A stretch of 64,000 nt of DNA from Ianthella basta (taxonomy: Eukaryota; Porifera; Demospongiae; Verongiida; Ianthellidae), in assembly GCA_964019415.1 (NCBI GenBank), contig OZ025871.1, positions 266,501 through 330,500 on the forward strand, in the 5' to 3' direction. Each line of letters begins with the position of its first letter. Position 1 is the first letter of the stretch. Of the stretch, positions 16,185-34,059 are shown piece after piece. The translations under genes were made by a program, and so were the position numbers. The notes under the pieces are model-generated. The model had not been told where the DNA came from, did no database searches, and was given only the letters and a program-made list of their open reading frames with translations.

Positions 16185-16204
16185 CCCTAACCCTAACCCT
16201 AACC
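16185..16204. repeat. Telomeric-type repeat, left junction of unit A
   Basis: Just over three CCCTAA copies exactly where the intron of the 14.7-kb YR gene stops and unit A begins. Confidence 0.95.
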
Positions 16205-16336
16205 TTGTGGTCGTGCTTGCCAAACCTTTATCCATCGAGAATCTTTAGCTGAACCTTTACCACTGTGGAACCTTTAGTTAAACCTTTACCCGTGTTGAAC
16301 CTTTATCTACCCCTTGATCCTAACCCTAACCCTAAC
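16205..16336. repeat. Degenerate telomere-like left arm
   Basis: Between two true CCCTAA runs (16185-16204 and 16319-16336) lie five or six AACCTTTA words (AACCTTTATCC, GAACCTTTACC, TAAACCTTTACC), each differing by one or two bases from the telomeric repeat. The same arrangement recurs at 25077-25207. Confidence 0.75.
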
Positions 16337-17811
16337 GTGACCCTTTGCTATCCCGTGTTCAGCAACCCCAAACTATCTACAACCCTTTGAGAAAAGCGCC
16401 TAACCCACCAAACCCTAACATTACACGCTAAAGCATAACATGCGCGCGCGTACACACTTACTTTAGCGAAGACACGATGCCTGGGAAACCCTCCAGAGCG
16501 CCAGGAAAAAAAAACGCAGCGTGCACCAGCTTCTCGGAGGCCATTTTCTTCGTCGTCTTGGTAACTAAGCACGTGTGCCTTAGCACCGCCCCCTGGGCTG
16601 TGACGTCACGCAATGTATTAAAGATAGCATGGGTGCAGCACCCATGCGAACTTTGACCCTCCATCCTTAAGCATTGGGGGGAGGGGCAAAATCAGCAACT
16701 TTGTCGACATCCTGCACATCGACGGTAAATTGTGAAACGTCGTCACCGCTCAGAGAGATTGCTAGCAATGATCTCTCGGCACTTGCAGAAATTCAAGACA
16801 ATACGCAGCTTAATGCTGCTTCTGCCCACCTAACCCATATAAATTAATACTTGGAAAATGCTGAGCTGGCTGAAAGAAGGCGAAGTTTGAGCGACTGCAG
16901 TACAGCGCGACTCGATTCTATCTCAACAACGACGACGAATATAACATCTACCAACATCTGAGATGTCATCACCACCAAGGAACGACTCAATTCTATAGGC
17001 TCAGCGTGCGACGATCCCGCAAACATGGTCCACACGCGAAGCTTCAATCCAGTCCAATTTGGTTGAGCATGACTTGCAGACTACTAGAAACGCATTGGAC
17101 GTATAGCTCGACGATCAGCATGTAACAGTAAAGAAAAATAGAGCTAAAGGTCTCCAAGGGGGTGGAGTCCTAGCAGCAATCAGGCCACAGATGAAGCTTA
17201 GTATCACCCAACACGCACGCACGCCGATCGCAGACTCACCGTGACTCCCTCGAAGCTTGATAGCGTCCCTAGTTGCTCGCAGGGTGGGCTTCAGCGAGCA
17301 AACCGACGAGCTCACCCTGGCCTAGGAGATGAGACGGCCATCTTCTTGATCAAATTCCAACTTCCAAACCAATGTTAAAATGGCGCATACTTACATACAT
17401 ACAATACATACGTGCATACATACATATATATGGGTATGCGTGTAGGAGATGTCACATAGACATCACACACTTGAGCGAGGTATAGCTATTGTGTGTGAAT
17501 GTATGTGTACAGTAGGGCCGGTTGTCCTGACTGAATGGTTGAAATCAGCTATTGGTAACTGATAGTCAAGCTAGTGATGTCGTTCTGTTGAGAGCTTTAG
17601 CCATTCTTCCTAGTTCCCATTGTCACTGCTTGAACTAGACTTGTAGCTGCCATAAAGAGTCGCTAGCTCGATTATCGATTACTCATACCGATTACAACCA
17701 TCCAGTTAGGGACTGCTAATGCAAAGGCACTGTATCCGTGAGTATAAGTGTGGTATGTTGCACACGTGAGTGAGTGAGTCAGCGAGTCAGTCTGTGAGCG
17801 AGTGTGTGTAC
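16337..17811. other. Unit A left region without assignable gene
   Basis: Has TGACGTCACG (CRE-like) near 16600, the self-complementary 19-mer at about 16630-16648, and 16680-17100, which looks like eroded coding sequence on the + strand (NTQLNAASAHL, YLENAELAERRR) with stops in every frame. Near 17340 the reverse strand reads AAGATGGCCGTCTC. None of this supports a gene call. Confidence 0.4.
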
Positions 17812-17897
17812 TGTGTGTGTGTGTGTGTGTGTGTGTGTGTGTGTGTGTGTGTGTGTGTGTGTGTGTGTGTGTGTGTGTGTGTGTGTGTGTGTGTGTG
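17812..17897. repeat. (TG)n microsatellite
   Basis: About 43 TG units directly before the hammerhead. Confidence 0.95.
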
Positions 17898-33000: not shown

Positions 33001-33297
33001 GAAGGACCTGATCTAGGAGACATTGTCGCAATCGTGCTGCCAGACTCCACCGCAGTGAAGCCAAAAGTTGACGTGGGCAAAGTCATGCGGATTGACAAAG
33101 CCAAGACGACGCTCAGGTATTTGCCACTCAACCACGTTGGAGGTAACAGATACCACTGCAAACTCGGGGATATACGGAAAGCCACTGTGGATCAGTGGGT
33201 ATATCCCGTAGATTTCCAGTACAAAGCCACAGAGAACACCTATCAACTCCTATCCACCCCAACAGAAATTCACCTACACAAACACCCACTTACATGA
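30051..33297 (+). CDS. Crypton-like tyrosine recombinase, seven exons (unit B)
   Basis: Exons 30051-30129, 30434-30953, 31113-31351, 31513-31825, 31977-32376, 32506-32697, 32830-33297. Exon lengths equal those of unit A, so the predicted product is again 736 residues and uninterrupted. A few substitutions change residues outside the catalytic set (for example AKRR to AKRW, DQAR to DQVR, LLGAG to LLRAG). Catalytic Arg, Lys, Arg, His and Tyr are retained. Two intact copies in tandem suggest recent duplication or recent mobility. Confidence 0.85.
30217..30425. repeat. (CTAC)n microsatellite in YR intron 1 (unit B)
   Basis: Shorter than in unit A and the inverted copy. Confidence 0.9.
30755..30921 (+). 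repeat. 27-bp coding minisatellite (unit B)
   Basis: Same unit number as unit A. Confidence 0.9.
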
Positions 33298-34033
33298 CTC
33301 TGTTTAAAATTTGCTATCACCCACTATCAACGACTGTACCTGTTGCATTAGCAATTTGTAATCATGACGGTAAGCATGTGTAGCGATCCATCCACGACAC
33401 CTAACTTCACGATGGCACCCAATTATGCGCAATAGAACGACGGCATAGAATAGAGACTAGGTAGCAAATTTGGGACCTAAATTGTCACTGAGGAGCAGCT
33501 GGTCTAACGCCACACAACACCTAACTACTACACATGTACATAGTCACTACGTGGTGCGTGCTGGGGGAGACTCACCTATGACCGACGCTAAGGCTGTGGC
33601 TCTTTGGCTGCATGTGCACAAGACAACACATATGTAAATGATTTCCGTACAACCAAACCTATCGGGCAAAACGTACTGTAGGCACAAGAGGACTTGATGG
33701 TGGGCCATAAGTGCATTCCTACGCAGATATGCTATGTTTCATAGGGCTAAAGCGCGTCCATGGCGCCTGATTCTGACTATACCCCAACTGCACCTTAGCA
33801 GAAAGGTCTACGGCGAGTCTACAGCACCGTTTCTAGGGACAGGAGGCCTCCATGGTCATTTCTAGAGAGCTAAGGCTAGCATAGAATGCTTGCTATGCAT
33901 ACAATACGTGGAATTGCAGCATAAAAGGACTGTGGCGAGTCTACAGCGACGTTTCAGGGCACATGAGGCCTCAATGTCTACTACAAGCGAGCTCAGACAA
34001 GTCTACAACGCACGCCTTCCGCGCTGAAGATAG
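33298..34033. other. Unit B right arm
   Basis: Non-coding, near-identical to 24307-25042, ending GCTGAAGATAG before the telomeric run. Confidence 0.6.
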
Positions 34034-34059
34034 AACCCTAACCCTAACCCTAACCCTAA
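34034..34059. repeat. Telomeric-type repeat at the right end of unit B
   Basis: Just over four AACCCT copies, then a direct switch into the TCTTGCCAAA satellite. Confidence 0.97.

Follow-up and report, generated by a model that had tools for sequence, protein, structure and literature searches.

Tyrosine recombinase elements bounded by the telomeric hexamer in the sponge Ianthella basta include a family with a split recombinase gene

Introduction

In the demosponge Ianthella basta, two closely similar units that each carry a tyrosine recombinase (YR) gene stand head to tail, with runs of CCCTAA at both edges and at their junction. Did the recombinase place them there by crossing over at the telomeric hexamer, or were they carried by exchange between telomere tracts? 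The original prediction proposed repeated entry of a circular form through the hexamer, with unequal exchange or passive capture of telomeric DNA as alternatives.

Insertion of YR elements into telomeres is already known. TATE of Leishmania braziliensis is a YR retrotransposon that is reported to form tandem clusters at GGG^TTA in the telomere hexamer (PMC6681497, PMC2696322), and endogenous nimaviruses of crustaceans, which carry a distinct YR family, are described as inserting into (TAACC)n telomere repeats (PMC10871703). Cryptons are described as having terminal direct repeats of 4-6 bp and a proposed circular form (PMC3212892). Self-splitting integrases are said in a review to be exclusively archaeal (PMC8371274).

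Results

We analyzed a window of 64,000 nt (the whole stretch of DNA considered here, C4:266501-330500) from a 209-Mb genome of 96 contigs, and its features are collected in Table 1. The two complete copies of the first family, fam1, are 98.4 and 98.9% identical in BLAST pieces. Their layout as a head-to-tail pair of about 8.9 kb each, with CCCTAA at both edges and at the junction (three, five, and four units from left to right), is as predicted, and so is the integrity of both YR genes, whose five-exon reading frames are open as modelled. The neighbouring copy of a second, related family, fam2, is about 99% identical, in the pieces listed, to a complete unit on C7 (L070). Long arrays of a 35-bp satellite lie proximal to the fam1 pair, and this satellite also adjoins fam1 right ends on C22 and C47. 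Within it is a 1649-bp inverted repeat (99.5% identical) that overlaps two open reading frames (ORFs) with weak reverse transcriptase matches, below the cut-off.

Table 1. Positions of features in the 64,000-nt window
Feature	Position	Strand	Basis or remark
Third fam1 copy	1-6616	-	98.2 / 97.5% identity to copies 1 / 2; cut by N gap
200-N assembly gap	6617-6816	.	Sequence
fam2 copy	6817-16184	+	Left part lost at gap; GTGAGTAACTGTCAACGTTTCACT then CCCTAA at right end
fam2 YR exon 5 end (C-terminal domain)	6818-7006	+	tblastn, 42% to fam1 YR residues 465-529
343-bp tandem repeat, 6.2 units, within fam2 copy	9064-11183
fam2 YR exon 1, ends approximate	15455-15667	+	tblastn 15502-15666, exon motif; end from sequence
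fam2 YR exon 2, intron donor at 16161	15845-16160	+	tblastn 15844-16161, sequence
3 CCCTAA units, fam2 right end / fam1 left end	16185-16202	+
fam1 copy 1, 8842 bp	16203-25044	+
Telomere-like stretch inside fam1 copy 1	16319-16336	+
fam1 YR gene, copy 1	22123-24306	+	Splice-motif exon model and alignment to relatives
fam1 YR exons, copy 1	22123-22360, 22522-22834, 22986-23385, 23515-23706, 23839-24306	+	Start exon beyond model
5 CCCTAA units, head-to-tail junction	25045-25074	+
fam1 copy 2, 8961 bp	25075-34035	+
Telomere-like stretch inside fam1 copy 2	25191-25208	+
fam1 YR gene, copy 2	31114-33297	+	Splice-motif exon model
fam1 YR exons, copy 2	31114-31351, 31513-31825, 31977-32376, 32506-32697, 32830-33297	+
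4 CCCTAA units, right edge	34036-34059	+	35-bp satellite next
35-bp satellite arrays	34060-36752, 41204-43511, 46576-63981
Inverted repeat, 1649 bp, within satellite	36752-38400 / 39523-41171

We searched the genome with patterns for the two fam1 ends, allowing up to two mismatches and using the backward-read pattern as a control. The searches found 44 left and 59 right ends and no match to the control pattern in either case, and this recurrence places the fam1 boundaries beyond chance. More diverged copies are missed by such patterns, and at least one internal fam1 relative, on C2, is among the protein-search matches listed. Flanks were recounted by position from all loci read together with the window, which covered every one of the 44 left flanks and, on the right, 55 of the 59. 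CCCTAAC was present at 42 left flanks, the other two being degenerate, and AACCCTAA at 54 right flanks, the remaining one reading AACCCTGA. At these 42 and 54 flanks the exact hexamer occurs in a single orientation and register, and CCCTAA on both sides of the element amounts to short terminal direct repeats in the 4-6 bp range of Cryptons. A genome in which most copies lay outside TTAGGG-type sequence would have spoken against the original prediction; nearly all of the flanks read are hexameric.

Scaffolds longer than 1 Mb carry 29 left and 43 right fam1 ends, none of them more than 310 kb from a scaffold end, and these are distributed over 21 ends of 15 scaffolds. The left end is directed towards the nearest scaffold end for 22 of the 29 left ends and, judged by strand, for 33 of the 43 right ends; the seven left ends that face away count against hexamer crossover by the YR. 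The exceptions in orientation are on C3, C4, C11, and C13. That on C4 can be explained by a scaffold join, as the minus-strand copy and the pair are split by the N gap. Pairing of fam1 ends, with a C19 remnant left out because the left end that it would pair with was in use already, gave 40 units, of which 38 measure 8.3-9.4 kb and two 11.8 kb. Two sites on C2 were considered as proof of targeting and rejected: C2:6674841 is a partial fam1 copy of about 90% identity whose exons contain a stop and indels, and at C2:8471754 the first 714 bp of fam2 stand beside hexamers. Both are truncated, so neither offers an internal telomere tract in which an element is intact at its two ends.

The fam1 family is young. 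When about 2 kb of 30 copies were compared, the median difference between scaffold ends was about one base per kb, 35 of 419 pairs between scaffold ends were identical, and the mean number of differences per kb was 0.34 within and 1.23 between scaffold ends. Dating events from this divergence was abandoned, as the burst is too recent. The copies at L039, L040, and L041 are identical over about 2 kb and are followed by three different downstream sequences, each beginning after hexamers. Identical copies with unrelated flanks beyond the hexamers indicate a mobile unit that the hexamers bound.

The modelled, spliced fam1 YR has five database relatives at E <=0.001, and a further 19 were reached through the most distant of these, P0005. 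When 13 sequences were aligned, R418, K468, R549, and Y586 of P0005 proved invariant and H577 conserved in at least 90%, a layout that we take to be that of a tyrosine recombinase. A histidine three residues before R549 is absent from that alignment, which limits its match to the catalytic R-H-R-Y by which Cryptons are recognized. Matches to the Pfam integrase SAM-like domain were below the cut-off, and a PDB sequence search with the YR profile gave no recombinase among five weak matches. The fold model of P0005, for which 24 sequences were used, is weak, with a mean pLDDT of 55.3. Cre ranks first among its fold matches (E 2.5e-4), and Ski/Dachshund and Tudor domains come after it at E >=0.04. 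The Ski/Dachshund match possibly corresponds to the N-terminal part of the model and the Tudor match to its C-terminal part. A Tudor-like C-terminal domain, which the alignment extends to fam1 and fam2, might serve in chromatin reading. Between the two fam1 YR copies in the window there are three non-synonymous and no synonymous differences. We count these, like the absent histidine, the Pfam matches below the cut-off, and the weak fold model, against hexamer crossover by the YR.

The Pfam scan took in 24 of the 30 fam1 ORFs with 80 aa or more and all 19 fam2b ORFs with 100 aa or more; shorter exons fall outside it. No reverse transcriptase, RNase H, or DDE transposase exceeded the cut-off in these ORFs, and none of them contained the helicase domain expected of a yeast Y' element. 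The YR is therefore the only transposition enzyme in the ORFs scanned, as in a Crypton and not as in a YR retrotransposon. Three other kinds of match were discarded. Hanta_Gc_N on L071:3536-3865 (E 2e-4, below cut-off) falls in a repetitive or short ORF, DUF3622 and DUF2624 on tandem-repeat ORFs exceed the cut-off in sum with no single stretch passing, and a transposase zinc-ribbon model on tandem-repeat ORFs reached E 0.03, below the cut-off.

In fam2, the recombinase gene itself meets the telomeric hexamer. The complete unit L070 (C7:10590-20520) has 9798 bp between hexamer tracts; on its left the hexamers are followed by an intron end and YR exons 3-5, and on its right YR exons 1-2 are followed by GTGAGTAACTGTCAACGTTTCACT before CCCTAA. 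These YR pieces are 48-56% identical to the fam1 enzyme. With exons 3-5 on the left and exons 1-2 on the right, the unit is a circularly permuted YR gene, an arrangement that had been predicted before the unit was read. At a tandem junction on C67 (TTTCACT-CCCTAA-ACCCGGG), a single hexamer lies within the intron, and a doubled unit read across the junction has open exons and retains the catalytic residues. Of the two families, only fam2 has the hexamer, its putative attachment site, within its own gene.

We compared two fam2 subfamilies over 527 codons, taking a single unit from each (9798 and 7946 bp), and counted 14 synonymous and 9 non-synonymous changes. For this one pair dN/dS is 0.19 (p 1e-4), with no indel or stop, which shows purifying selection on the split gene. 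Whole exons 1 to 5 were found at 14, 14, 9, 9, and 8 loci, respectively (L009-L072, some overlapping), with no frameshift or stop. The gene lies in two pieces in lone copies and yet stays in working order, so the joined form probably has a role; tandem arrays could be enough to provide it.

Searches for the fam2 end motifs found 43 right ends (41 exact) and 40 left ends. CCCTAA follows the right end at 27 of the 28 flanks read, the other being CCCTGA, and the left end comes after CCCTAA at 11 of the 16 flanks read and after CCCTAACCCT at the other 5. A single CCCTAA serves both a fam2 right end and the adjoining fam1 left end in L032, which gives the two families a common register. In L070 and L071, the fam2 left end has a near-palindrome directly after the hexamer, both arms of which differ between the subfamilies (CTGGCCCCCAG versus CCGGGCCCCCGG); it is perhaps a recombinase site.

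We counted junctions by coordinates, taking ends no more than 400 bp apart. Exactly one hexamer separates the elements at 10 of 16 fam1-fam1 junctions (all ten read) and at 15 of 15 fam2-fam2 junctions (three read), compared with 1 of 14 fam2-fam1 and 0 of 16 fam1-fam2 junctions. One-hexamer junctions thus make up 25 of 31 within a family and 1 of 30 between families (p 2e-10). Because arrays copy their own junctions, the 25 cases are not independent and represent fewer events, in about ten arrays. In L087 (C7) a fam1 right end is joined to the copy that follows it at the internal telomere-like stretch of that copy, and hexamers cap a fam1 right end on C19 of which 187 bp remain. From these two cases, exchange inside hexamer tracts seems to occur too, as does erosion of ends followed by healing.

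Four of the 17 contig ends read finish in telomere repeats (the starts of C46 and C3 and the ends of C11 and C2), and most of the others read consist of elements or other sequence. C2 starts with CCCTAA repeats. There are two matches to the telomerase RNA-binding domain in the genome, and the host telomeres are probably made by telomerase. The genome also has 34 matches to Wnt, which mark the host of the elements as an animal. Telomere repeats adjoin a GTGGCCC-rich repeat that ends in ACGATGGCC and can face either way (L010, L026, L080, and L086). A third YR family, fam3, is about 27-29% identical to the fam1 YR and lies in opposite orientation beside fam1 arrays (L052/L121 at C23:20840-32000, L041, and L062). 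On C23 its 3' side adjoins TTAGGG repeats, and on C3 and C9 the homology stops elsewhere. As no constant end was found in the three places, fam3 was left out as a hexamer-bounded family.

Discussion

We think it fairly probable that fam1 and fam2 are Crypton-like animal YR transposons that recombine at the telomere hexamer. In such a scheme, the recombinase would join the element ends to give a circle with one CCCTAA, and the hexamer of the circle would recombine with a telomere hexamer in constant register and orientation. A one-hexamer circle as the source of the tandems would account simply for the junction counts within families, and the mixed arrays agree with elements that entered separately, each into a telomere tract that had grown back. 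Repeated entry and regrowth of this kind, together with erosion of ends and homologous exchange, would produce the mixed arrays at chromosome ends. For fam2, the hexamer is in the YR intron, and insertion of a lone copy would leave the gene halved; it would be whole in a circle or a tandem, where the hexamer would sit in a removable intron. The split gene of fam2 strengthens the case for hexamer crossover through a circle, and with the flanks it makes this part of the original prediction the best reading. Exchange between telomere tracts, the alternative named there, keeps its place as a rival, and it is because sequence alone cannot separate enzyme-driven entry from homologous exchange that we put our confidence no higher.

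Homologous exchange is the main rival. Yeast Y' elements are subtelomeric units that occur in tandem with telomere repeats between them, encode a helicase-like protein, and spread by homologous recombination. The sponge arrays share part of this anatomy, being subtelomeric tandem units separated by telomere repeats, and differ in that no helicase-like gene was found in the scanned fam1 and fam2b ORFs. Fam1 and fam2 could be repeats of this sort, copied between telomere tracts by homologous recombination or break-induced copying, with the YR a passenger or active elsewhere. The variable hexamer numbers at between-family junctions, the L087 joint, the capped C19 remnant, and the near-identical copies on many scaffold ends all agree with it. 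It offers no reason, however, for both families to encode a recombinase, and it leaves unexplained why the telomere joint of fam2 falls in an intron of a gene under selection; the frequent junctions of exactly one hexamer within families are likewise unaccounted for, unless one ancestral joint was copied. We regard exchange as the sole source of the arrays as possible but doubtful.

The shortened, telomere-capped copy on C19 and the presence of a telomerase domain would also suit passive capture, in which broken ends gained CCCTAA from telomerase and units were copied there by chance. Random breaks would not give the constant ends seen at nearly every flank read, and we consider this account very unlikely. 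Still more improbable is that the tandems are false joins or collapsed repeats. The N gap in the window, the arrays on small contigs, the odd orientations on four contigs, and the small share of contig ends with telomere repeats are reasons to consider it, but N-free head-to-tail joints are present on several scaffolds, with differing hexamer numbers and flanks.

Hexamer crossover by the elements' own recombinase, the reading that we prefer, has partial counterparts in known systems. Like fam1 and fam2, TATE is reported to have a YR and tandem clusters at one hexamer position, and its GGG^TTA, read on the opposite strand as TAA^CCC, corresponds to our parsing of the hexamer; it differs in having reverse transcriptase and RNase H, which the fam1 and fam2 ORFs scanned lack, and a TT duplication is reported for it, fam1 and fam2 being compared at the level of the hexamer only (PMC6681497, PMC2696322). 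Nimaviruses likewise tie a YR to insertion into host telomere repeats, and their long reads suggest concatemers or episomes; compared by description, they differ in their genomes of about 280-400 kb, their viral genes, and a YR with a C2H2 domain (PMC10871703). With Cryptons, compared by description and not by tree, the sponge elements share a YR as the only enzyme, short direct repeats at the ends, and a proposed circle, whereas the Crypton descriptions drawn on here contain no telomere target or split recombinase gene (PMC3212892). The suicidal integrases of SSV1 type resemble fam2 in that the attachment site lies within the integrase gene and insertion splits it; as described in the review, they are archaeal and have that site in coding sequence, in contrast to the intron site at the telomere in fam2 (PMC8371274).

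In the literature searched, which left most subscription papers and bioRxiv preprints outside, we found no eukaryotic YR element with an attachment site in its own gene and no short YR-only animal element that inserts in telomeres; a search for telomeric Cryptons in sponges gave only a plant review. The chances seem to us about even that fam2 is the first self-splitting integrase in a eukaryote, with its telomere attachment hexamer in its own YR intron, so that insertion would turn the gene off, and a circle or a second adjoining insertion would turn it on, the hexamer being spliced out.

If hexamer crossover is the right reading, the few YR elements known from telomere repeats gain a short animal DNA transposon, whose register is the one described for TATE. 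Whether subtelomeric arrays can be built by a site-specific recombinase rather than by homologous recombination is now a testable question. If the fam2 reading is true, a control device that is restricted to archaea according to the review exists in an animal, with its attachment site borne in an intron, and the telomere would be a safe and self-limiting home for fam2.
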